This document shows, piece after piece, positions 30,815 through 63,360 of a DNA stretch of 64,000 nt (positions are counted from its first letter, which is position 1; every line of letters begins with the position of its first letter). Source of the stretch: an uncultured Hyphomonadaceae bacterium (GTDB taxonomy: Bacteria > Pseudomonadota > Alphaproteobacteria > Caulobacterales > Hyphomonadaceae). The notes beneath the pieces were generated by a model. That model worked only from the letters and a program-made list of their open reading frames with translations, was not told the DNA's origin and did not search any database. The stretch is taken from assembly GCA_938084575.1 (NCBI GenBank), contig CALKFG010000007.1:62001-126000 (forward strand). The letters run 5' to 3'. The position numbers and the translations under genes are program-made.

Positions 30815-31233
30815 GCCCGTCTGCCCCACCCTTCGAATTCCTTGAGAGACGGTATCAAGCAGTCCGCCAAACTGTCAATCCATCTTTACGTCTACTTTTC
30901 TTGACGCGCGCTCGTTTTTGGTGCGCACCGGGCCTTTAAAAAAATAACTTGCCGAGTTGTTTTTATCGGTATTCTATAATTCTTATCCGGGACGACTGGT
31001 TAAGACTCCGAGGCGGCACGCCAAGACGGCTTGCACGCTATGGTTGAGACCTGCGCGACCTGGATCAAACAAAAAGCTTTGGGGGAAGCCGTGTTAGATA
31101 TCCATAAATCGAAGGACGCTCCGGTCCTGCTGCGGCTGCGCAATCTCTGCGCGGTTCTGGATGCGGGCTAACCGCGCATGAGCCTTTGCCCCCCTGCCGC
31201 GACCGAACCGGGACAGGTTCAGAAGGAGGGAAC
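30815..31233. promoter_or_regulatory. Divergent control region between bchF and ppaA/aerR
   Basis: This gene-free interval of 419 bp separates the two divergent halves of the PGC. It holds one imperfect PpsR site on the bchF side, a perfect 10-bp palindrome GGTGCGCACC at 30920-30929, and an AT-rich stretch with a perfect TATAAT at 30975-30980. The best -35 candidate for that -10 is TTGCCG at 30949-30954, but the spacing of 20 bp is too long for a standard promoter. A 43-codon ORF (31040-31171) lies inside but has no supporting features. Confidence 0.55.
30873..30890. promoter_or_regulatory. PpsR/CrtJ-type palindrome upstream of bchF (imperfect)
   Basis: TGTCAATCCATCTTTACG matches TGT-N12-ACA with one mismatch in the last half-site. 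On the minus strand it supplies a TTGACA -35-like hexamer pointing at bchF. Repressor binding here would control the whole bchF-to-hemA run. No second site at 8-bp spacing is seen. Confidence 0.55.
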
Positions 31234-32133
31234 ATGACAGACCTCAGAACGGGCAATGACGCAAACAGCGAAGCCCCTTACAGCGACGAGGCGAATGGCG
31301 CATCGGACCATGACACCTGGACCAAACCTATGTTTCAAGGTGGCCCGGAGGGTTTTCCGTCAAGCCTAGACAGCTTGCTTCGCGCCATTGAGGACCAAAT
31401 CCTGCCCCGGTTGTCAGCAAGCGAGGCACCCAACCTTAAGCCTTCTGGGGAAACGCCCTCCGCCGATGCCCTGACACAGGAAAACCGCGATGCCTTTTTG
31501 TCGGAATTGCAAGATGGCAGTATGGAGTCGGCCTGCAGGCTGGTCGACGAGCATCTGAGTCGCGGTATTTCCCAAGAGGTTATCTTTCTCGATCTTCTGG
31601 CTGAAAGCGCCCGACGTCTAGGAGCGCTTTGGGAAGAGGATCTGTGCGATTTCAGCGATGTTACCATCGGGCTTTTCAAGCTGCACGAAATCCTGCGCAA
31701 GTATAGCGAGGATGATGCCATGCCAGCCCGGCAACCCAATCTCTGGGCGCCTCACATCCTGCTTGCCAATGCCGATGGCGACCAGCACATGTTCGGCCTG
31801 GTCATGGTCGCGGAATTCTTCCGCCGGGACCGCTGGCGCGTGGCTTGCGAGCCTGGGGCAGACGCAAGAGCCGTGAATGACATGGTTAGAACAACTCATT
31901 TCGACATTGTCGGCCTGTCGGCCGCCTCAACAGTTCAGACGAAGCGGTTAAAGCAACAAATCACACAGCTGCGCAAAGCGTCCTGTAATCCTGACCTGCA
32001 GGTCATGGTCGGCGGCCCAGTTTTTCAGCAGGACACAGATATGGTCGGCAAAATTGGTGCTGACCTATATGCGGAGGATGCAAGTGCGGCCCCAAATATG
32101 GGCAGACGCCTACTGGCGAAAGTCACGTCCTAA
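31234..32133 (+). CDS. ppaA: Cobalamin-binding light-responsive antirepressor AerR/PpaA
   Basis: This 299-residue cytoplasmic regulator combines an N-terminal helical region with a C-terminal B12-binding Rossmann domain. The DxHxxG cobalamin motif (DQHMFG) places the cobalt-ligand histidine at about residue 185. It is followed by FDIVGLSAASTVQ and VMVGGPVF. AerR/PpaA homologues bind photolysed adenosyl- or hydroxocobalamin and modulate PpsR/CrtJ. ATG 31234 has a strong AAGGAGG Shine-Dalgarno. The frame is open to 31186, but those codons are not convincing. ppsR follows 39 bp downstream. Confidence 0.92.
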   Translation: MTDLRTGNDANSEAPYSDEANGASDHDTWTKPMFQGGPEGFPSSLDSLLRAIEDQILPRLSASEAPNLKPSGETPSADALTQENRDAFLSELQDGSMESACRLVDEHLSRGISQEVIFLDLLAESARRLGALWEEDLCDFSDVTIGLFKLHEILRKYSEDDAMPARQPNLWAPHILLANADGDQHMFGLVMVAEFFRRDRWRVACEPGADARAVNDMVRTTHFDIVGLSAASTVQTKRLKQQITQLRKASCNPDLQVMVGGPVFQQDTDMVGKIGADLYAEDASAAPNMGRRLLAKVTS

Positions 32134-32172: not shown

Positions 32173-33594
32173 ATGGACGATTCGAAGCACTCTAAGGACT
32201 TGGCGCACGGCTTCCAGCAGGCAGACAAAATTCTTGCCACGCTGGACCCACGGACGCTCGCCACCACTCTTGAGCAAGCCGCGGATATCACGCTGATCAT
32301 CGAAGATGGAATTATTAAAGACATCGCAATTCCGGATACCAACCTGCAGCAGGAAGGTTTTGCAACAAGCTGGCCCGGCAAGTCGTGGATCAGGACGGTC
32401 ACCGTCGAAAGCCGCCCTAAAATAGAAGACCTGCTGTCCGCCTCCGCCAATCGGAACAGTGTAACAGAGCGGCAAGTCAACCATATGTCGACCTCTGCCC
32501 AGGATGTGCCGATCAAATATAAGACCGTGCAAACAGATCAGCCCAACCGCATTATTGCCTTAGGCCGAAACCTCCGGTCGCTGTCAGCCCTGCAGCAACG
32601 CCTTGTCCGAACCCATCAAGACCTGGAGCGCGATTATGCCCGACTGCGCGCAACCGAAACCCGCTACAGAGTGCTGCTGGACACGATCACAGAACCAATC
32701 CTGATTATAGATGCCGATACGATGTCGATTAAGGACGTCAATGCGCCGGCGATCCGGCTGGTTGGGCGGGTTCGCGATGAAATTATAAGCCAGTCTATCC
32801 GGGATTTTTTCAGACAAGACCAGTCGGGACGTCTCGAACGCCTCACTGCCCGCGCCATCTCCGATGGAAACGCTGCATCAGACCCGATTGCGCTCATGGA
32901 CGGACAGACTGTTAAGCTGTTCGCATCCGCCTTTCATCAGGGCGTCGGCCCCCAGATCATGGTCAGGCTTCAGGCAGAAACTGCTGCGCAGCCGGCTGAA
33001 AAGGGCGGCGACGCAATGCTCAACGCACTTCAGGATCTGCCAGACGCCCTCGTTGTCACCAGCCCGGACCTGCGAATTCTTACGGCCAATCGCGCCTTTT
33101 TGGACAATGTCCAGATCACCGGGGCTGCCCAGATACGCGGCGCCTCTCTGGGTGACTTTCTGGGCCGCTCCCAGACCGATCTTAACGTACTGATTTCAAA
33201 TCTTAAAACAGGTGGATTTGTCCGAAATTTCGCAACCAGCCTGACTGACCGTTTTGGTGCGGAAGACCAGGTCGAAGTCTCCGCCATAGAGACAAGCCAA
33301 TCGGGCCAGCCGGTTTTCGGCTTCTCCATCCGGAACGTCGCTCGTCGTCTGCCATCGGATCCCGGAATCAGTGAAAGACTGCCCAGTACGGCCGACCAGC
33401 TCACCAATCTGGTTGGACGCGTGCCGCTCAAAGATATCGTCAAGGAAGCGACCGTACTGATCGAACGTCTTTGCATCGAGGCCGCCCTGAACCTTACCGG
33501 GGACAATAGAGCATCTGCCGCTGAAATTCTTGGCCTCAGTCGTCAAGGGCTTTATTCAAAATTGAGCCGTTTCGGGGACACTGACGATGCCTGA
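32173..33594 (+). CDS. ppsR: Transcriptional repressor of photosynthesis genes PpsR/CrtJ
   Basis: This 473-residue regulator has an N-terminal PAS-like domain, a coiled Q-linker helix (about 135-160, LVRTHQDLERDYARLRATE), two PAS domains (about 160-270 and 285-395) and a C-terminal Fis-type helix-turn-helix ending NRASAAEILGLSRQGLYSKL. I see only one cysteine in the whole protein, about residue 434 (ERLCIEAAL) beside the HTH. This corresponds to Cys424 of the Rhodobacter sphaeroides protein; the partner of its internal disulfide (Cys251 there) is absent. It should bind the TGT-N12-ACA sites described in this window. Confidence 0.95.
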   Translation: MDDSKHSKDLAHGFQQADKILATLDPRTLATTLEQAADITLIIEDGIIKDIAIPDTNLQQEGFATSWPGKSWIRTVTVESRPKIEDLLSASANRNSVTERQVNHMSTSAQDVPIKYKTVQTDQPNRIIALGRNLRSLSALQQRLVRTHQDLERDYARLRATETRYRVLLDTITEPILIIDADTMSIKDVNAPAIRLVGRVRDEIISQSIRDFFRQDQSGRLERLTARAISDGNAASDPIALMDGQTVKLFASAFHQGVGPQIMVRLQAETAAQPAEKGGDAMLNALQDLPDALVVTSPDLRILTANRAFLDNVQITGAAQIRGASLGDFLGRSQTDLNVLISNLKTGGFVRNFATSLTDRFGAEDQVEVSAIETSQSGQPVFGFSIRNVARRLPSDPGISERLPSTADQLTNLVGRVPLKDIVKEATVLIERLCIEAALNLTGDNRASAAEILGLSRQGLYSKLSRFGDTDDA

Positions 33595-49968: not shown

Positions 49969-51156
49969 ATGAATATCCTGCTCACACTTGGCCGGCTTGC
50001 CAAGGGGCTTGAGCTCGCCCGAAGCCTCTGGCAGGCGGGCCACAGGGTTATCGTCGCGGACCCGTTTCAAATGCACCTCAGCCGGCCCTCCCGGGCGGTC
50101 CGCAAGTCGTATCGGGTCACCGCTCCAAGCCAAAGCGCTGACCAGTATCTTGATGATCTTGCGGAAATCGTCGCGCGCGAGGCCATAGATCTGGTCATCC
50201 CCGTCTCGGAAGAGGCGCTCTTCACGTCGCGTCTTGGGCCACGCCTGCCCAAGGGTACGGCGCTTTTTGGACCCGGTTTCAACCAGATGTCTGTCCTGCA
50301 CGATAAGCTCAGTTTTGCCGACATCTGTCGCTCACGGGGCCTACCCGCTCCCGAAACCCATGCGGCAAACACCGCGGCTGGCCGGCAGCTGGCCGCACGA
50401 AGCGACTATGTCGTCAAGCCGATACATGGCTGTTCCGGCATCGGCCTGCGGCTGAGGCACAAGGGCGACCCGCTGACGCCCTCCGACCAGACTGCGGACA
50501 ATCTCGTCCAGCAGCGCCTTTATGGCCGGCAGATTTCCAGCTTCAGCATCACCCGGAACGGTCAGGTCCTGGCAACCGCACTGTATCAGGGCGACGTCTA
50601 TCTCGGGACCGTCTCCGTTCGGTTCAAACGGGTGGACGATCAACCCCGGATCGAAGACTGGATTCGTACTTTTGTCGCGACCGAACAGTATAGCGGCTTC
50701 ATCTCATTTGACTTTTTTGTCACCGCGGATGGCACGCCCTTTGCGATCGAATGCAACCCACGCCTGACCAGCGGCATTCATCTGATCCACCGCCAGACCC
50801 TGGCCGCGCTGATCGCTGGCACGCCGGTGTCATCCCCGGTTTTCAAGACCCGCCGGGTCTTCCAGGACGCACATGCGACCCTGACCGTCGCCTGCGGCGC
50901 CATCCTGCGGCCCGGGGACTATTTCAGAACGCTCGCCAAGGTCCTGACAACCAAGGATGTGATGTTCGACTGGCGCGACCCCGCGCCCTTTTTCCTGATG
51001 ACTCCCATGTCCTGGGATACGCTGCGCCAGGCACTGTTTGACGGTGTGCCGCTAACCGATGCCGCCACACGCGATATTCTCTGGAGCGGCGATCGACCGG
51101 CCACGCCACCGACAGGCAGGGAGGTCAGGCTCGATGACGCCGTACACGGACACTGA
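49969..51156 (+). CDS. ATP-grasp domain ligase embedded in the carotenoid genes
   Basis: This 395-residue protein has an N-terminal Rossmann-like preATP-grasp domain (MNILLTLGRLAKGLELARSLWQAGH). The ATP-grasp fold follows, with YVVKPIHGCSGIGLRL (nucleotide-binding lysine/loop, about residues 145-160) and the metal-binding FAIECNPRLTSGIHLI near 260. Such enzymes activate a carboxylate as acyl phosphate and join it to an amine, thiol or hydroxyl. The gene is divergent from crtB and overlaps the P450 gene by 32 bp at its 3' end. ATP-grasp enzymes are not standard PGC members. The substrate is unknown; a carotenoid acid is one possibility. Confidence 0.8.
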   Translation: MNILLTLGRLAKGLELARSLWQAGHRVIVADPFQMHLSRPSRAVRKSYRVTAPSQSADQYLDDLAEIVAREAIDLVIPVSEEALFTSRLGPRLPKGTALFGPGFNQMSVLHDKLSFADICRSRGLPAPETHAANTAAGRQLAARSDYVVKPIHGCSGIGLRLRHKGDPLTPSDQTADNLVQQRLYGRQISSFSITRNGQVLATALYQGDVYLGTVSVRFKRVDDQPRIEDWIRTFVATEQYSGFISFDFFVTADGTPFAIECNPRLTSGIHLIHRQTLAALIAGTPVSSPVFKTRRVFQDAHATLTVACGAILRPGDYFRTLAKVLTTKDVMFDWRDPAPFFLMTPMSWDTLRQALFDGVPLTDAATRDILWSGDRPATPPTGREVRLDDAVHGH

Positions 51157-52528
51157 TCTCGCTGGCCGGGCGCGTGGTCAGACGGGCGACCGGGCGGACA
51201 GCCTCGGTGCTCACGACCTCAAAATCATAATCCCTCACCAGGCTGGCAATGATCAGCGCCGCCTCGACCGTGGCAAAGCCTGCACCGATGCATGTGTGGG
51301 GGCCCTGACCGAAGGGAATATAGGTGCCGGGTTCAACGTCCCGCTCCCGCCCCCCCAGGAAGCGCTCAGGATCAAACCGGTCGGGCTCGGGCCAGTGGCG
51401 CTCATGGCGATGAAGCGTCCACGGCGCGATCATCACCAGCGCACCGCGACGCAGTTTGCGTCGTCCCAGAGCCACGGGTTGGTCGGCAACGCGCGGCATA
51501 AATGTGATCGGTGGATACAGACGCAGCACTTCCTTAAAGAAGCTCCGGACAAAGGGAAGATTGCGCACATCATCCATACCCAGAGGCCCGTCGCCGGCGC
51601 GCTCGCGCACCTCGGCGCGCACGCGCGAACAAATCTCAGGCCGGACGGCCAGGATATAGAAGGCCCATGTCAGGGCACTTGCACTGGTCTCATGACCCGC
51701 GAGAAAGAACACCCCCAGCTGATCGATCAGTTCATCGCGCGTGAAGGCCGCCCCCGTATCGCTGTCCCGGGCGGCAATCACGGCGCTCGCAATGTCGTTA
51801 AACTGACCCGTCTCATCGTTCAGATGGGTGTCGGTCAGGTCCCCCAGGTGCTGGCGAATCCGGGCACAGGCGGCCAGAACATGGTCGTCCTGGCGCACCG
51901 CCGTCCAGGCCGGGTCGATGATCAGACGCCAGATCTGCACCTGGGCCACATCCCGCTCAAAAATGACGAAATCGTCGAACACATCTTTGGCAACGCCCGT
52001 ATCGAGCGATGTCGAAAACACCGTCCGGCAAATGACATCCGCGGTGAGGTGGCTCATGGCGAGGTCAAGCGAAAACGGCGTCTCCTGCCGGGCCATCCGG
52101 TCAAGCCAGGCCAGACGGTCCTGAACAGCCGCGTGCATGGACTCAAAGGCAAGGCTCAGGCGCATATGCGAAAACGCCGGATCGATCATCGCCCGCTGAC
52201 GCCGCCAGGTTGCGCCATCGGTCACGAAAATGGACCCGCCAATCAGCGGTTCCAGCGCATTGACCATGAGGTCGCTCTTGGGGAAGGTCGTCCCGTCATC
52301 CGACAAGACCTGCCGGACCAGAGCTGGATCATTGAGCAGGAAAATCGAGCGCCGGGAATAGCCGAGCGTGCCGATATCCATGCGAAACGCATTGCCGGGC
52401 AGCAAGCTCAGCAGATCCCCATCCCCCTGGCGCAGTGTTCGCGCCAGCGCCGCAACAGACCACAATTTCGAGGGACGCGGCGGAACAAAAGGTTCGCTCA
52501 AAGCACTCATATGGTGTTCGTCCCCCAT
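51125..52528 (-). CDS. Cytochrome P450
   Basis: This is a 467-residue soluble-type P450. The I-helix oxygen motif is FFLAGHETSAS near residue 272, the K-helix ExxR is KEVLRLYPP, the PERF-like segment is DPERFLGG, and the heme loop is FGQGPHTCIG with the proximal Cys at about 413. It has no N-terminal membrane anchor. ATG 52510 (MSALSEP) is an alternative start. It lies between crtB and crtD with an ATP-grasp gene beside it. Some bacterial P450s, such as Thermus CYP175A1, hydroxylate carotenoids, so a pigment substrate is likely but not shown. It diverges from the next gene by only 35 bp. Confidence 0.88.
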   Translation of the reverse strand: MGDEHHMSALSEPFVPPRPSKLWSVAALARTLRQGDGDLLSLLPGNAFRMDIGTLGYSRRSIFLLNDPALVRQVLSDDGTTFPKSDLMVNALEPLIGGSIFVTDGATWRRQRAMIDPAFSHMRLSLAFESMHAAVQDRLAWLDRMARQETPFSLDLAMSHLTADVICRTVFSTSLDTGVAKDVFDDFVIFERDVAQVQIWRLIIDPAWTAVRQDDHVLAACARIRQHLGDLTDTHLNDETGQFNDIASAVIAARDSDTGAAFTRDELIDQLGVFFLAGHETSASALTWAFYILAVRPEICSRVRAEVRERAGDGPLGMDDVRNLPFVRSFFKEVLRLYPPITFMPRVADQPVALGRRKLRRGALVMIAPWTLHRHERHWPEPDRFDPERFLGGRERDVEPGTYIPFGQGPHTCIGAGFATVEAALIIASLVRDYDFEVVSTEAVRPVARLTTRPASEISVRVRRHRA

Positions 52529-52563
52529 CCACCCTGTTTCCTCAAACCCCTGTTAGCATAGTC

Positions 52564-53313
52564 ATGTCTTACCTGCATCTTTTTGAACTCCTCATCATTC
52601 TCCATATCAGTTTTGGCGCCCCCGGCCTGATCAGTTTCTGGATCCCCGTGCTGAGCCGAAAGGGATCAAAGCTCCACACGGCCTGGGGTCGGGCTTTCGT
52701 GATCATGATGCTGATTACCGCCAGCTGCGCGGTGGGCATGGCGACCATGTCGATCATCGACCCGGTCGCAAGCCACCCCAAGCTAAGCGATCATGGCAGC
52801 TTCTCGGATCCGGTCCTGATCCGGGGTATTTTTGGCTGGATGATGCTGTACCTGGCCGTGCTCACCCTCAACCTGACCTGGTATGGCTGGCTGTGCATCC
52901 GCAATCGGGGGCGCCATGCCCAAAACCGGGCCTGGCACAATATGCTTCTACAGGGGCTTCTGCTGATCGCCTCCGCGAATTGCGCCTGGCAGGGCTTTGT
53001 CATCGGCCAGACAATGATGATCGGCATGTCGATTGTGGGCTTTGCCACCGTTGGAACAAATCTCTGGTTCATGCTGAACCCGGCCCCCGCCGCGCTCGAC
53101 TGGCTCACAGAGCATATCAAGGCGCTCGTCGGGACGGGAATCTCTGTCTATACGGCCTTTTTTGCATTCGGCGCCGTCCGCCTGGTGCCTGAACTGGCGC
53201 TCGCGCCGGCACTCTGGGCCATTCCCCTAGTCACTGGCCTGGCCCTGATCCTCTATCATCAGCGCAAGGTTCGCAGGCCCGCAGGCCGCAGCAAACCGGT
53301 GCCCACGACATGA
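52564..53313 (+). CDS. Polytopic membrane protein coupled to crtD
   Basis: This 249-residue protein has about seven hydrophobic segments: an N-terminal pair with LHISFGAPGLISFWIPVLSRKGSKLH, then segments near 40-60, 85-105, 130-150, 155-170, 190-215 and 220-240. The first segment contains a His, and HTAWGR follows, in the style of DUF2306/heme-binding-like membrane proteins, although I cannot assign the family. ATG 53310 of crtD overlaps its stop (ATGA), so the two are translated together. It may help the desaturase at the membrane or be a separate oxidoreductase. Confidence 0.72.
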   Translation: MSYLHLFELLIILHISFGAPGLISFWIPVLSRKGSKLHTAWGRAFVIMMLITASCAVGMATMSIIDPVASHPKLSDHGSFSDPVLIRGIFGWMMLYLAVLTLNLTWYGWLCIRNRGRHAQNRAWHNMLLQGLLLIASANCAWQGFVIGQTMMIGMSIVGFATVGTNLWFMLNPAPAALDWLTEHIKALVGTGISVYTAFFAFGAVRLVPELALAPALWAIPLVTGLALILYHQRKVRRPAGRSKPVPTT

Positions 53314-56432: not shown

Positions 56433-57299
56433 CTAGGCCGCCAGGGCTGCCACGATCAGGTCCGCGATATTTTGCGGATCCTCTTCATGGGCCAGATGCC
56501 CCAGGCCCTGCAGGGTCGTCTTTTGCGCCTGGCGCAGACGCTGGGCCGCGGCCTCGGCCTGTGCCGGCGGGACAGCCCGATCACCTGTTGCAACGAAAAG
56601 ATGCACCGGGATATCAACCCGGCCCAGGCGGGACGCAAAATGCGACAAGTCCCAGTTTGCCATCATGGCCAAGGCCCCGGCAATGTGCCGCGGCGACCTG
56701 AGCAGGACGGCGTACAGATCGACATACAGCTCGGGGGCATAGGATCCGGTCTGCTCGATCAGGCGCCTCACGCGGGACCGGTCCCGCGCGGCCCAGGCCA
56801 GTGCATGGGCCGAAACAGGATTGAAGTGAATCATCTTAGCCAGAAGCGGAAACATCACGCTGGCAGCCCCTTCAAATGGCACCAGAGCCCCGTTCAGGCT
56901 GATCACCGACCCGGGGTGGGCCCGGCCATCCAGCACCATTTGCAGGGCCACCGCCGCGCCCGCGGAATGCCCGACAAGACAGACCGGCGCCACTTGCAGG
57001 ACGTCCATCAGCGCCCCCACAGCCGCCGCCATCCCGGCCAGGTCCGATGCGCCCCTGTGCCGTGACCGGGTGAAGCCATGCCCCGGCAGATCGACCGCAA
57101 TGACCTCAAACCTCCGTGCCAGCTTCGGCATAAGACCCGCCCAGCTGTGAGTCGACGCCGCTGTGCCATGCAGAAGCAATAGGGCTGGCCCCTGCCCCAT
57201 ACGCTGAACGTGCCAGACCGTCGCCCCCGCAGAAACAAACCGGCTATGGTCCCGATTGGGCCAGTACCGGCCGTCTTTTTCCCATTCCAGACCATCCAT
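56433..57299 (-). CDS. bchO: BchO, alpha/beta-hydrolase-fold protein of Mg-chelatase clusters
   Basis: This 288-residue protein begins with the BchO-typical WPNRDHSRFVSAGATVWHVQRMGQGPALLLLHGTAASTHSW. It has nucleophile elbow GHSAGAA and a late HLAHEEDP histidine. It is required in some purple bacteria for BChl synthesis, with unknown chemistry. In most PGCs it directly follows bchI-bchD. Here about 4.3 kb of plus-strand genes for a molybdenum hydroxylase and a methyltransferase separate it from bchD. Confidence 0.92.
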   Translation of the reverse strand: MDGLEWEKDGRYWPNRDHSRFVSAGATVWHVQRMGQGPALLLLHGTAASTHSWAGLMPKLARRFEVIAVDLPGHGFTRSRHRGASDLAGMAAAVGALMDVLQVAPVCLVGHSAGAAVALQMVLDGRAHPGSVISLNGALVPFEGAASVMFPLLAKMIHFNPVSAHALAWAARDRSRVRRLIEQTGSYAPELYVDLYAVLLRSPRHIAGALAMMANWDLSHFASRLGRVDIPVHLFVATGDRAVPPAQAEAAAQRLRQAQKTTLQGLGHLAHEEDPQNIADLIVAALAA

Positions 57300-57317
57300 A
57301 AACCATCCATATATTTT

Positions 57318-57347
57318 GACAGTTTGCGCTGTCTACTGTTGAAGACG
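57318..57347. promoter_or_regulatory. Inverted repeat and PpsR-like site between bchO and the methyltransferase gene
   Basis: A perfect GACAG-N6-CTGTC inverted repeat (57318-57333) overlaps TGTCTACTGTTGAAGACG (57330-57347), which misses TGT-N12-ACA by one base. TTGACA at 57316-57321 could be a plus-strand -35, but the -10 is poor. This would place the inserted genes under the same control as the pigment genes. Confidence 0.45.
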
Positions 57348-57349
57348 TT

Positions 57350-57964
57350 ATGGATGATTTTTCACTTCAAACGCTGCGATACGGCCTGGCGGTGATCCTG
57401 CTGGTCCTCCTGCCCGTTGTCTGTGCCTTCTGGTTCGTCATACACGGCGCCATCGGGTTCTGGAAAACCCGGCCGGCCTGGATGGCTTACTGGGCCGCCC
57501 TGATTGTCATTCTGGCCACGCTGGGCCTGATCTGGGCCATGCTCCCAATGCTGCTTGGCGCTGATCTTGGCAGTTTTCCTGGTCTCACAGGCGCCGGCGC
57601 CGCGATCTATCTGACAAGCTGGGCCCTGTCACGCAGCATCCGGAAGCATCTGACTTTCAGGACCTTTGCCGGCCTGCCGGAAGTGCGCAATGAAACCACC
57701 ACCCTGATCGAGACCGGCCCTTTTTCAGTGGTGCGCCATCCGCGCTATTTCATGATCCTTGTCGGCGTTCTCGGCTGGAGCCTCGCCGCCAATTATATCG
57801 GCGGCTATGTCGTGTCGGTGGTTTTTGCGTTCTGCCTGCTGCTGATTATCCGGATTGAAGAACGTGAACTTTGTGCGCGGTTCGGCGACGCTTACCGGGC
57901 CTATCAGGCGCGCGTTCCAGCCCTTCTGCCGGCGCCCAGGAATCTGGGGAAGCTGTTTGTCTAG
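57350..57964 (+). CDS. ICMT/PEMT-family membrane methyltransferase
   Basis: This is a 204-residue protein with four or five membrane segments. The C-terminal SAM-binding region is typical of isoprenylcysteine carboxyl- and phospholipid methyltransferases: [22 protein letters not shown], then [28 protein letters not shown]. Members methylate carboxylates or amines of lipophilic substrates. It is the first plus-strand gene of the insert and overlaps the molybdenum hydroxylase start by 8 bp. A lipophilic carboxylate made by the P450/Mo-enzyme pair would be a consistent substrate, but this is inference. Confidence 0.78.
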
Positions 57965-60845
57965 CGACACTGCCTCGCCCGCGCTGAGCGATTCGACCGA
58001 GACCGCAGAGCCGACTGTCAGCTTTGACGTCAATGGACGGGCTGTCGCGGTCACGGCCAGGGCGGATGAAGCCCTGGTCGTCACCCTGCGCGAACGGCTC
58101 GGACTCACCGGCACCCATGTCGGGTGTGACACCGGTCAGTGCGGCGCCTGTACGGTCCACCTCAATGGCCGCTCCGTGAAGGCCTGCACTCTCCTGACTC
58201 ATCAGGTCGACGGCGCACACATCACCACGATTGAGGGCGTCGCAAGTGGCGAAACCTTACATCCCGTCCAGCAGGCCTTTCAGGATACGCATGCCCTGCA
58301 ATGTGGTTTCTGCACCCCCGGCATGGTGATGCAGACGCTGGACCTGCTGGACCAGACACCCCATCCCAGCGAGGCAGAAATCCGGGACGCGCTGAAAGGA
58401 AACTACTGTCGCTGCACCGGATATCAGAACATCGTCCGGGCTATTCAGCTGGCCGCCAGTGGCAGCCAGCCCCGGCCACCGGCCTCCAAGATCGACAGTG
58501 CAATAGGCGCCTCGCCGCCGCGCCGCGAAGACCGGCGATTCCTGATGGGGCGGGGGCGCTACACAGCCGATATCACCCTTCCCGGGCAGGCCCATGCGGT
58601 GTTTGTCCGGTCGACGGAGGCGCACGCCATCCTGGAACGGGTCGACACCCGCCAGGCCGCGGCGCAGACCGGGGTGATCGCGGTTCTGACCGGCGACGAC
58701 ATCGATGCTGACGAGATTGCGGGCCTCACCTGTTCGTGGCAAATTCTGTCCCGGGACGGCTCCCCCATGAAGGCCGTCCGCCGGGCCCTTCTGGCACGGG
58801 ACCGGGTCCGCTTTGTCGGCGAGGCCGTTGCCGTCATCATCGCAGACACCCGACAGGCCGCGCAGGCCGCATCGAAACTCGTCGAGATTGTCTATTGCAA
58901 GCAGGCTGTCCTGACAGACCCCTGCAGCGCCGTGGGTGGACCGGTCCTGCATGCCGAGGCACCGGACAATCGCTGTTATTCCTGGGCGTTTGGCGACGAG
59001 GCCACGATCGACACCATCATTGCCGGGGCGGCGCATGTCACCGAAGTGTTCCTGGTCAACAACCGGGTGATCCCCAATGCCCTCGAACCCCGGGCCGCCA
59101 ATGCCAGTTATGATCCTGGCAGTGATAAACACCTGCTCTACACCACCAGCCAGAACCCGCATATGGCCCGCAAGACAATTGCGGAAACACTGGGCCTCGA
59201 CTCAGAGACCAATCTGCATGTGATCTCGCCCGATGTCGGCGGAGGCTTCGGGTCCAAGATCTTTATCTATCCCGAAGAATGCGTCTGTCTCTGGGCCGCC
59301 AAAAGACTTGGCGTACCCGTCAAATGGGTGGCGACGCGGACAGAGAGCTTCCTGACCGATGCGCATGGCCGCGACCATCACACAAAGGCCCGCCTGGCCC
59401 TCGACGACGCTGGCCATTTTCTCGCGCTGAAGGTCGAGAATATTGCCAATCTGGGCGCTTATCTGTCGAGTTTTGCGACCTTCGTCCCAAGCTTTCTGTA
59501 TGCGACCATGCTGGCGGGGCCGTATCTCACCAAGGCCGTGTATTGCGGTGTCGATGCCGTATTCACGAACACCGCACCGGTTGATGCCTATCGCGGTGCG
59601 GGTCGTCCGGAAGCGACCTATCTGATTGAAACGATTATTGACGAAGCGGCTCGTCAGACGGGCATGGACCCCGTTGAGCTGCGTCGCCGCAACCTGATAC
59701 CGGCGGAAGACTTCCCCTATATGACGCCGGTCGGCCTGCAATATGATGTCGGCGACTATGGGCGCCATCTTGATGCGGCACTTCTGAAAGCAGACTATGA
59801 CGGGTTTGAGCGCCGCCGCACGGATGCCCGCAAGCGGGACAGGCTTCGCGGCTTCGGCGTGTCCTGCTATGTGGAAGCCTGTGGCATCGCGCCCTCCTAT
59901 CTTGCCGGGGCACTCGGCACCAATGTCGGTCTCTGGGAAGCCGCAACCCTGCGCTTTTCACGAGACGGCCATTTGCAGGTTCTGACGGGATCTCATAGCC
60001 ATGGCCAGGGGCATGAAACCAGCTTTGCCCAGCTTGCGGCGGAGACACTCGGACTCGACATCCACCATATCTCCATCATCCATGGGGACACGGAACGCTC
60101 CCCCATGGGGGTCGGCACATTCGGCTCCCGCTCGCTGGTTGTCGGCGGGTCGGCTGTGGTGCGCGCCGCCGAGAAAGTTATCGAAAAAGGCAGGCACATC
60201 GCCGCGCACCTCCTGCACGGCCCGGTGGCGGACATCGACTTTGCTGGCGGCATCTTCACACAGGCGGAGACGGGGAAAACGCTGTCCATTCAGGCCATCA
60301 TCCAGGCGGCTTATGGCGCCCAGAACCTGCCGGAAGGCCTCAGCCCGGGGCTCGAGGAAACCGTGCTTTACGACCCGGTGAATTTCACCTTTCCCTCAGG
60401 AACGCATGTCTGCGAAGTGGAAATCGACCCCGCGACCGGTGCCCTGGAGCTTATCCAGTTCGTGGCGATCGATGATTTTGGCCGGCAGGTTCATCCCGCC
60501 ATTGTCGAAGGCCAGGTCCATGGTGGGGTCGCGCAGGGACTGGGCCAGGCGCTGCTGGAGGCCGCGCTGTATGACCCCGAGACCGGGGCCCTGACCAGCG
60601 CGTCCTTTCAAAGCTATGCCTTTCCGAAGGCAACCCAGCTGATCAATATCGATACCGGCGCGACCGAAACGCTCTGCCCACATACCCCTACGGGCGCCAA
60701 AGGGGCAGGAGAGGCCGGCGCCATTGCCGCCCCTCCGGCGATCATGAACGCCATTGCCGATGCCCTTGGAACACGGCTGGAAATGCCCGCCACGCAGGAG
60801 CGGATCTGGGCGGCCTGCCAGACAGCGCCCAGGGCGCCGTCATGA
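57957..60845 (+). CDS. Fused 2Fe-2S / molybdopterin hydroxylase (xanthine oxidase family)
   Basis: This is a 962-residue fusion. Residues about 20-160 carry two 2Fe-2S domains: Cys57, 62, 65, 77 ([10 protein letters not shown]) and Cys116, 119, 151, 153 (CGFC, CRC). The rest is the molybdopterin domain, with [25 protein letters not shown] and the catalytic-Glu motif KGAGEAG near the C-terminus. The active-site loop reads [11 protein letters not shown], that is CoxL form-II-like, not the AYRCSFR of true CO dehydrogenase. The start is TTG 57957, with a GGGGAAG Shine-Dalgarno and overlapping the methyltransferase stop. It is coupled to an FAD subunit by an ATGA overlap. The substrate is unknown; an aldehyde of a lipophilic pigment is possible. 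Confidence 0.88.
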
Positions 60846-61597
60846 CCTCACATTTCCACCGCCCCGCCACGCTTGACGGCGCCGTCCGGCTGTTACAGGA
60901 GCGCGCGCCCAGCCTGGCCATTGCCGGCGGGCAGTCCGTTCTGCCCGATTTACATCGCACCGGGCCGGCGGCGACCCACCTCATCGCAATCGATCAGATC
61001 GGGGCGCTGCACGGAATCGAGGCTGACGACACCCACCTGCATCTTGGGGGCGCAGAGACCCACCACCTGATCGGACACAGCGATCTGGTGCGCGCCACAC
61101 TTCCGGCCCTGGCTGAGCTCGCCCTGATGATCGGAGATCCACAAATCCGCCATCGGGGCACCATTGCCGGGGCTCTGGTGGCGAAACCGCAGGATACAGA
61201 CTATGTCGCAGCGCTTCTGGCGCTCGACGGCCACATCAGAACCACCCGGCGCAGCCTCAACATCGCTGACCTGACGAATGTGCCGGCGAAGGCTTGCCTG
61301 CTGCCGGATGAATTGATCATCTCCATTTCGGTCCGGCGCCCCGAGGCTGCCCTGTACCAAAAACACGCCCATCCTGCAGCGGGCTATGCCGCGCTCGGCC
61401 TGTTTTGTGCCCGCAGTCCGGATCAAACGCACTGTCTGGCCCTGATCGCTCAGGGCCGGTCGCCCTGCCGCGTCGACCTTCCGGCCGGACAGCCTCTGGC
61501 AGAAGCCGGACCTGATCTTGTCACCCATGCCGGGCTCACCCCCTTCGAGGCGGCCCTTCTTGCGCACTTCATCGGGCACGCCGACACAGCGCTTTAA
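60842..61597 (+). CDS. FAD-binding subunit of the molybdenum hydroxylase (CoxM-like)
   Basis: This is a 251-residue subunit that passes electrons from the iron-sulphur domains to FAD. The first FAD motif is [15 protein letters not shown] near residues 26-40. The second, normally TIGGN, reads [15 protein letters not shown], so two conserved residues are changed. The protein is also shorter than usual (about 280-300). It starts inside the end of the large fused gene (ATGA) and overlaps the convergent bchD by 4 bp. Confidence 0.85.
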
Positions 61598-63360
61598 CGG
61601 CGCAGGAACTGACCTACCGTGGAGGAGACCGACGCACTGTCGGCATAGGGCAGAAGCTGATAGGCCGCCCCCAGCTCATCTGCAATCGCCATGGCCTTGG
61701 CGCCAGGTCGACGGGCCGTATCAAGAAACAGGCTGGGAAACCCAACGGCCCGAATCTGCCTTGCCAGTGCCCGGGCATCTTCATCCGCCCGGTCCCGGCC
61801 CGCCTCACCATCAAGCGCGATATTCGCCTTACCGTCCGACAGGAACACCAGATAGGGCGTCCGGCCCCGGCGACGCTCGGTCAGAGCAAGCCGCAAGGCC
61901 GCCGCCGCACCGGCCGCAAAGGGCGTGCCGCCGCCACCGGGCAGCCGGGCCAGAGAGCGTCGCACCCGGACCAGCGACCGTGTCGGCGGCAATAGCAGCT
62001 CGGCGGTCTCTTTTCGAAAGGCGATAAGCGCCACCTGATCCCGCCGGGTATAACAATCCGACAACAATAATTCGACCGCGCCCTTCGCTTCCGCCATACG
62101 GTTCATGGCGAGAGAGCCGGAAGCATCAACGACGAAAATCACAACGGTCGGAAGATGTATGCGCGTCCGGCGCAGGCGAAAATCCTCGGCCCGCAGCCGC
62201 ATGCGGTCGGCATCCGCCTGACGCCCTCGCACGTGCTGCCAGGGGGCCGCTGCCCGCAGCGTCGCGAGAAGATCCAGCCGGCCATCGCGACGCGGATCAC
62301 CGCCCCGTGTGCCGACCGGACGCCCCCGGTCGCGGGACTCTCTCAGCTCTCCCGAGCGCCCGCCGGATGTCCCCGGGGCCATGCCTCTCCGGCGCTGTTT
62401 CGATGTCTGTCCAAGCAGGCGCAGAGTGTAGGACAGTTTGACAGCCTCGATCAGCTGGTCTTCCAGTTCCGCCGACTCCTTGCGGCTCTCGCCGCGCCCG
62501 TCATCCATGTCGGTTTCGGGCGGCGGCGGCGCCACCTCACTCTCAGCCAGCTCGGGCGTCATGACCATAAGCGGGCCAAGCACCAGGCGGCAGGCCAGCT
62601 CGGCATGCCTGGGGAGGACGTCCTCACACCCATCCAGTGCAGCCAGTGCCCGGGTCGCGCGCAGGCAGAACTGCAACGTCCTGAGACCGGGCACGCCCAG
62701 CCGGATCGCCGCGGCATCAATAGAGCGGCCCATCTCGTCGGGAACGACCAGGCGGGACAAGCGGCCCCGGGCCGCCTCAATCACCTTATAATCGAGGACG
62801 GGGAGGTCTGCATCGCGGATCGAGACCCCGTCCAGGCTGACCTGGAAAGCCACTCGCTCAAGCAGGAATTGCGGGGGCGCGACCATGTCCTCGCTGCTCT
62901 CATCCAGCAGCACAAGAGCAAACTGTCCGGCCTCCCGGCGGGACATCCCATGCCGCTCTATGCTGACTTCGCCGCGGTCCAGCGCGGCGGCAAGATGGGC
63001 GGCAATCGGGCGCGGCAAGCGTTCCGCCATGCGCGCAACAAGCAAACCGCCATGGGCCCGGCCCAGCAGGCCGGCTTCTGCCACCGGCCGCCCGGCAGCC
63101 AGCGTCGCCGGCAGGTCAAGACCGCCGAGAACCCGGTCTTCCGAGGCCCCGGGTGGCAACTGGACAATGGGACCGTCGGTCGCGAACCGCCGCTCGATCC
63201 GGGTCAGCCAGACTTCCCGGACAGGTCCGGCCGCGGCATGCAGAGAGATGCCTTTCAGGCCCTTAGGATCGACCGCCAGGAGGGCCGAGGCAAGGTCTGC
63301 CTCCTGCCAGAGGCTCTGGCCCACTTTCTGTGCCGGAAGGAGATCAGCCCCCTCGGTCAA
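61594..63360 (-). CDS. bchD: Magnesium chelatase subunit D
   Basis: This is a 588-residue subunit. An AAA-like N-terminal half is followed by a Pro/acidic linker ([14 protein letters not shown] near residue 280) and a C-terminal von Willebrand A domain with the MIDAS motif [10 protein letters not shown]. It works with BchI and BchH to insert Mg2+. It overlaps bchI by 4 bp and is convergent with the Mo-hydroxylase FAD gene by 4 bp. Confidence 0.95.

Follow-up and report, generated by a model that had tools for sequence, protein, structure and literature searches.

A molybdenum hydroxylase module between bchO and bchD

We analyzed a 64,000-nt stretch of contig CALKFG010000007.1 from an uncultured Hyphomonadaceae bacterium (the window; all positions are counted within it, and its genome is called G000), in which three forward-strand genes lie between the bacteriochlorophyll (BChl) genes bchO and bchD. 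The left neighbor, bchO (56433-57299, reverse strand; TIGR03056, 303.8 bits against a cut-off of 172.55), diverges from the module across a gap of 50 bp. The module opens with a gene for an ICMT/PEMT-like integral membrane methyltransferase (57350-57964, forward strand, ATG start). It continues with a fused 2Fe-2S/molybdopterin hydroxylase of the xanthine oxidase family, CoxS-CoxL type (57957-60845, forward strand), for which a TTG start gives an 8-bp overlap; since the open reading frame as listed begins at 57855, the true start is uncertain. The third gene encodes an FAD subunit (60842-61597, forward strand, ATG start) and overlaps the hydroxylase gene by 4 bp. The right neighbor, bchD (61594-63360, reverse strand; NF009943, 604.5 bits against a cut-off of 571), is convergent, its stop overlapping the end of the FAD gene by 4 bp, and bchI follows, also on the reverse strand.

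An earlier note on this DNA had described a bchI-bchD-bchO unit split by opposite-strand genes, and the presence of the module between bchO and bchD is confirmed. Its reading of the three genes as one operon is borne out by their common strand and their overlaps. The bchI-bchD-bchO group is, as it had said, usually tight: bchD adjoins bchO in six of the eight loci from other genera with bchO in view, the module being present in none of the eight, and the portion of PMC3176799 consulted counts bchIDO among four conserved regions.

The hydroxylase is placed in the xanthine oxidase family by MoCoBD_1, MoCoBD_2, Ald_Xan_dh_C, Fer2, and Fer2_2 domains, all above the Pfam gathering thresholds. None of the three module proteins reaches an NCBIfam cut-off, and they are therefore named here at family level, without substrate assignment; the nearest NCBIfam model for the hydroxylase, glyceraldehyde dehydrogenase alpha (NF041018), scores 614.3 against an equivalog cut-off of 790. 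Eight cysteines (C57, C62, C65, C77, C116, C119, C151, and C153), which we take to be the Fe-S ligands, and E919 in a GAGEAG stretch, presumably the catalytic-type glutamate, are invariant in all three copies found in the genus. These three are all fused, and none of 109 relatives is. The Mo frame of the relatives is shorter than 880 codons in 101 of the 109, and the other eight, which are longer, lack C116, one of the Fe-S cysteines; inspection of 38 relatives one by one found a separate Mo gene in all 38 (781 to 809 codons) and a separate Fe-S gene in 37 (152 to 200 codons). The possibility that fusion is common among the relatives was rejected, as stop counts in full-length matches and frame lengths show separate genes. 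A tree of 112 Mo domains groups the genus copies in a single clade (SH-aLRT 100) whose stem is long; the tree tool, treekit, warns of long branches meeting in it.

The AlphaFold2 model of the hydroxylase has a pLDDT of 86.8. In a Foldseek search, CoxL chains ranked top by E value, while among the 50 matches shown the single-chain aldehyde oxidoreductases 1dgj and 1sij ranked top by full-length TM-score (TMq, 0.83 to 0.84), and the model thus suggests an architecture of the aldehyde oxidoreductase type. Like the window enzyme, the Desulfovibrio aldehyde oxidoreductase MOP (1sij, 1dgj) is one chain with its Fe-S domains ahead of the Mo domain; identity is 26%, and MOP has no FAD subunit, whereas a separate one follows here. 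Form II-like CoxS-CoxL-CoxM systems share the domains, cluster cysteines, catalytic-type glutamate, FAD_binding_5 partner, and fold, but differ in that here the Fe-S and Mo parts are fused, a methyltransferase belongs to the operon, the FAD subunit is divergent, and a pigment-type site lies upstream. For the Mo cofactor, the gene moaA was looked for, and its MoaA C-terminal domain was found in all three genomes that carry the module.

The methyltransferase scores 42 with Pfam PEMT (gathering threshold, 25) and 28.2 with ICMT (threshold, 24), carries the C-terminal stretches RHPRY and EE..L..RFGD.Y, and has the ICMT structure 4a2n as its best solved relative (E value, 3.4e-5). It nevertheless falls far below the equivalog cut-off of the NCBIfam isopcys_mtase model (NF040696; 49.5 against 160), and no prenylated protein substrate is implied. 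The FAD subunit matches FAD_binding_5 above gathering and is 56% identical to the copy in G024 and 35% identical to that in G003, the other two module-bearing genomes. The Pfam scan gave no CO_deh_flav_C match in it, and a relative's score for this domain is likewise under the cut-off. The subunit has TIAG in the window and TIGG in G003.

Between G000 and G024, dN/dS was 0.108 for the hydroxylase, 0.119 for the methyltransferase (133 codons), and 0.227 for the FAD subunit, about twice either of the others; other cluster genes gave 0.045 (P450), 0.070 (crtI), 0.032 (bchZ), 0.084 (part of bchD), and 0.060 (bchG), all of these figures being rough at a dS of 1.25 to 1.96. The hydroxylase and the methyltransferase are under purifying selection.

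Distribution within and beyond the genus

Among the 29 genomes of the genus (of 61 searched; hydroxylase threshold, E value of ≤1e-100), pufM occurs in three and the hydroxylase in exactly those three, at 80% and 58% identity in the two other than G000. The cytochrome P450 of the window's pigment cluster has matches at an E value of ≤1e-30 in the same three genomes and in none of the other 26 (84% identical in G003 and 88% in G024). By simple combinatorics, the chance of matching placement of three in 29 is 1 in 3,654; shared descent may account for it. Across the order, pufM was found in 58 of 398 genomes. The methyltransferase (E value of ≤1e-20) was found in three of the 398, namely the three pufM-bearing genomes of the genus, and the hydroxylase (E value of ≤1e-150) in three of the 58 phototrophs. 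The order search also returned a genome, G654, in which two genes resemble pufM, sharing 75% and 60% identity with the copy in the window.

The position of the module differs between the three genomes. In G024, the hydroxylase and FAD genes adjoin bchD as in G000, and contigs end inside the methyltransferase gene and inside bchO, so that the methyltransferase-bchO join is likely as in G000. In G003, bchO-bchD-bchI is intact and the module is located some 4.5 kb past bchI, after genes for a cytochrome c, idi, and hydroxyisobutyrate dehydrogenase-like and aldehyde dehydrogenase-like proteins, with lipB after the module (names other than the cytochrome were assigned by eye). In G000, G008, G016, G024, G025, and G028, at least the nearest gene to the right of lipB is retained, and the module is beside lipB in none of these six.

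Beyond the genus, the best hydroxylases are 56 to 57% identical among the matches listed from 385 genomes of the class. The methyltransferase (E value of ≤1e-12) had, besides its own genome, one weak match in the class, 39% identical over half the length and, by eye, adjoining a release-factor-like gene; it was not found in 29 class loci with flanks of about 1.5 kb. Nor was it found in the best 80 named loci, where flanks reach up to 10 kb and many are shorter; these 80 are the best of a longer contig listing, and absence there proves little. Their hydroxylases are 48 to 55% identical, and the puf, bch, and crt proteins of the window match there only at the level of paralogues (26 to 39%). A search of plasmids returned five weak records for the methyltransferase, 150 for the hydroxylase and 81 for the P450, all of the latter two below 60% identity. 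In nine of the 80 loci, eight of them from Rhizobiaceae, a CoxSL-like hydroxylase lies within a few kilobases of a hemA-like gene for 5-aminolevulinate synthase, 63 to 75% identical to that of the window (L053, L065, L067, L097, L109, L110, L112, L118, and L122).

The earlier note had proposed that recurrence of the order bchD-hydroxylase-methyltransferase-bchO in several lineages would support a role in photosynthesis. The complete order was seen only in G000, and among the 398 order and 385 class genomes the hydroxylase and the methyltransferase were paired nowhere but in the genus; the order does not recur across several lineages. The module is not confined to one genome, being present in three of the 29, and the link is supported instead by its co-occurrence with pufM and by a pigment-type site in two species.

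An operator-like site upstream of the module

The 50-bp gap between bchO and the methyltransferase gene contains an operator-like site, TTTTGACAGTTTGCGCTGTCTACT (57314-57337, no strand assigned), whose core, ACA-N8-TGT, is that of tandem sites of the PpsR/CrtJ type and which is conserved in G003 at L006:19329-19352. Within it, TTGACAGTTTGCGCTGTC (57316-57333) has TTGACAGCACAGACTGTC as its G003 counterpart, and the pattern TTGACAG-N6-CTGTC stands 16 and 17 nt ahead of the methyltransferase ATG in G000 and G003, respectively. In G003 the module is not next to bchO, so its site there cannot belong to that gene. Tandem TGT-N12-ACA PpsR sites with an 8-bp gap are described in the part of PMC4452267 seen, and the positions stated for the tandem CrtJ sites of bchC in the text available of PMC5362033 leave 8 bp.

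The site was spotted first, and the dyads of pigment promoters were then derived without this genus, from 29 upstream regions of bchC, crtB, crtI, and bchG in other genera compared with mononucleotide shuffles; related promoters in this set are not independent. The top palindromic dyad was ACA-N8-TGT, in 13 of the 29 promoters against 0.8 expected (z = 14.5), and TGT-N12-ACA ranked fourth (12 against 1.5 expected). Upstream of the module, the ACA-N8-TGT junction of tandem sites is present and, as read by eye in both species, a complete TGT-N12-ACA palindrome is absent; plain TGT-N12-ACA is not enriched in the window (8 against 6.44 expected). A first promoter model, trained on same-genus sites chosen with the same pattern, was rejected as proof and replaced by the model from other genera.

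A position weight matrix (PWM) built from the 15 sites in these regions (which come from six bchC, four crtB, and three bchG promoters and from no crtI promoter) ranked the module site third among 63,977 window positions (score, 18.54) and fourth among 159,816 positions in G003 (15.34). With matches assigned to genes by position, the window scores were 23.46 for bchC, 19.66 for bchG, 18.54 for the module, 15.14 for crtI, and 12.66 for crtB; those in G003 were 23.35 for bchG, 20.65 for bchC, 15.97 for crtB, 15.34 for the module, and 14.94 for crtI. Scores of at least 15.3 were reached at none of 187,938 positions of the genus outside the photosynthesis gene cluster (PGC) and at five of 1,503,224 positions in the best 80 named loci. 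In the 300 bp that precede the Fe-S gene, two of 108 relatives reached at least 15.3 and three at least 12, with a median best score of 2.3; random windows of the relatives' loci reached 15.3 in 0.15% of cases. The site is not a general feature of the enzyme's operon. At L053:9944 and L108:9860, GACA-N8-TGTC-like palindromes precede the projected start of the Fe-S gene by 25 and 82 nt.

A candidate regulator is encoded in the window by ppsR (32173-33594, forward strand; TIGR02040, 391.7 bits, above the cut-off). Beside it is a gene with a B12-binding domain (31186-32133) that resembles AerR/PpaA in position and domain. From the resemblance of the sites, the module is probably under the control of PpsR.

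The pigment cluster and a proposed role

Best profile matches in the window identify acsF, puhA, puhB, puhE, bchHBNLMXYZCGPDIO, pufLM, ppsR, and crtBCDEI; the scores of crtB, crtC, crtE, and the part of bchI inside the window do not reach the equivalog cut-offs, and in the position of crtF there is an O-methyltransferase. An Rfam scan gave no matches. The interval between crtB and crtD holds three further genes. The first encodes an ATP-grasp protein (49969-51156, forward strand; ATP-grasp_3 above gathering; PRK06849, 263.5 bits, under its cut-off of 406). The second encodes a CYP97/LUT5-like cytochrome P450 (51125-52528, reverse strand; Pfam p450, 245.9 bits), the proposed source of an oxidized carotenoid. 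The third encodes a polytopic membrane protein, recognized by alignment (52435-53313, forward strand), with an all-helical model (pLDDT, 79.6), for which a fold search gave nothing at an E value of ≤0.001 and the plasmid search no records. A search of viral contigs gave no lead.

Plant P450s of the LUT5 and carotene epsilon-monooxygenase type hydroxylate carotenoids. The top solved match of the window P450 is LUTEIN DEFICIENT 5 (6j94; E value, 1.3e-50), followed by a putative P450 and, lower, by animal P450s and carotene epsilon-monooxygenase (1.4e-32). The P450 is found at ≥56% identity in 30 of the 58 order phototrophs, and the triad of ATP-grasp protein, P450, and membrane protein is contiguous in all 11 P450-centered loci of other genera. 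The hydroxylase was found in none of the other-genus phototrophs searched, and the triad therefore works there without the module. The triad is a candidate for carotenoid aldehyde formation. In G003, a block of ATP-grasp protein, P450, membrane protein, crtD, and crtI lies on a contig other than that of the PGC (L134, G003:C6:293000-312999), with operator-like sites before crtI and before the ATP-grasp gene.

ICMT enzymes are carboxyl methyltransferases. An aldehyde-oxidizing type of Mo enzyme beside a carboxyl-type methyltransferase suggests conversion of an aldehyde to an acid and then to a methyl ester. In the pathway that we propose, the products assigned to crtE, crtB, crtI, crtC, crtD, and crtF would make an acyclic C40 carotenoid, and the CYP97-like P450 may act on a methyl or methylene carbon, oxidizing it to the level of an alcohol or aldehyde. 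The fused hydroxylase with its FAD subunit would then use oxygen derived from water, as is the chemistry of the family, to turn this aldehyde into a carboxylic acid, and the membrane methyltransferase would convert the carboxylate to a methyl ester. PpsR, or a factor using the same site, would tune the operon along with bchC, crtI, crtB, and bchG. The earlier note had suggested that the module may act on a pigment aldehyde; a carotenal produced by the P450 is a plausible candidate.

The best overall explanation, which we hold at a little short of even confidence, is that the module serves an accessory modification of pigments in a single phototrophic genus and is coregulated with the pigment genes. 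That it has some role connected with pigments or the photosystem is probable; the evidence tying it to pigments comes from one genus and consists of co-occurrence and a shared regulatory site. Whether the substrate is a carotenoid seems evenly balanced, and a carotenoic acid methyl ester as the product is a tentative suggestion. Rather unlikely as a whole is the fullest version, a first Mo-dependent carotenoid step in which the PpsR-controlled fused hydroxylase makes a carotenoic acid from a P450-made carotenal, the ICMT-like enzyme converts this to a methyl ester, yielding a new class of photosystem carotenoid, and the triad is the missing maker of carotenal groups like those of rhodopinal, bacteriorubixanthinal, or gemmatoxanthin.

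Bacteriorubixanthinal, like these others known from chemistry, bears an aldehyde. Bacteriorubixanthinal is named as a pigment of Erythrobacter species in the portion of PMC6627997 seen. Gemmatoxanthin is, in the part of PMC8342508 consulted, a linear C40 carotenoid with methoxy, 19'-aldehyde, and 16-carboxyl groups, and a photosystem carotenoid can thus carry an in-chain aldehyde and a carboxyl together. The same excerpt states that no enzyme has been identified for C-19 or C-20 carotenoid oxidation, and that of PMC10604819 gives the genes and enzymes leading to rhodopinal as unknown. CruH and similar enzymes are known carotenoid methyl-to-carboxyl oxidases; the domains of the window enzyme are those of a Mo hydroxylase. 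Among the papers listed for Mo hydroxylases or P450s in PGCs, no title or abstract opening describes such a module. The figure key of PMC3338782 lists "aldehyde oxidase and xanthine dehydrogenase" and cytochrome P450 for a Citromicrobium PGC region and a matching PGC-less region.

If the proposed role is true, a molybdenum enzyme is placed in photosynthetic pigment synthesis, and testable genes are named for carotenoid aldehydes and acids; the genus would have extended its photosynthesis genes by an accessory enzyme and retained the pigment-type site for it even outside the bch genes. Several observations weigh against it. The hydroxylase is missing, at an E value of ≤1e-150, from 55 of the 58 order phototrophs and is therefore not needed for any core step, and the P450 is common in phototrophs without the module. 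The long stem of the hydroxylase clade could also reflect relaxed constraint, and the FAD subunit evolves fast, with no detectable C-terminal domain. As to the site, its outer half-sites are degenerate by eye in both G000 and G003, the window crtB score barely exceeds the next match (12.64), and two non-PGC positions of G003 (L046) score 14.91 and 14.75, near the module and crtI. Of the five foreign positions with high scores, two (in L053 and L108) immediately precede the relatives' own hydroxylase genes, a small excess that may reflect some link of the palindrome with the enzyme itself.

Among other explanations, photo-oxidative clean-up survives best, although we consider it unlikely. The hydroxylase would oxidize aldehydes from light-broken carotenoids, lipids, or phytyl and geranylgeranyl chains, coexpressed with the photosystem and yielding no new pigment. 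The aldehyde oxidoreductase-like architecture and the pigment-type site fit this equally well, but the overlapping gene for a carboxyl-type methyltransferase and the specialized, fused clade would be left unexplained.

Distinctly unlikely is a hitch-hiker of catabolic function, in which an operon of the ordinary form II CoxL-like kind landed in the cluster, perhaps with its own operator, and has no tie to pigments. The outside relatives do lie away from photosynthesis genes in the best 80 named loci, and two of 108 have a similar palindrome upstream; however, shared presence with pufM at two genomic positions, the pigment-type site at both, its absence from the other 106 relatives, and purifying selection all speak against it.

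We rate a BChl or tetrapyrrole step, in which the module would act on a BChl intermediate at a side chain or ester, as lower still and improbable. The location within bchI-bchD-bchO in G000 and a site of the bchC/bchG type favor such a step, but most BChl a genes are assigned without the module (bchF and the 8-vinyl reductase being outside the scan), the G003 module is not between bch genes, and most phototrophs of the order do without it. We know of no BChl-modifying role for a xanthine oxidase family enzyme.

Supplementary CO oxidation by an aerobic CO dehydrogenase, for mixotrophic energy gain, is very improbable: the best solved match is a CoxL (8uem), but the hydroxylase scores 548.4 bits against the TIGR02416 cut-off of 991.15, its active-site stretch reads DAYRGAGR instead of the AYXCSFR signature of form I CO dehydrogenases, and the methyltransferase would have no obvious place. 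Identity as a CO dehydrogenase was rejected on the profile score and the active-site loop.

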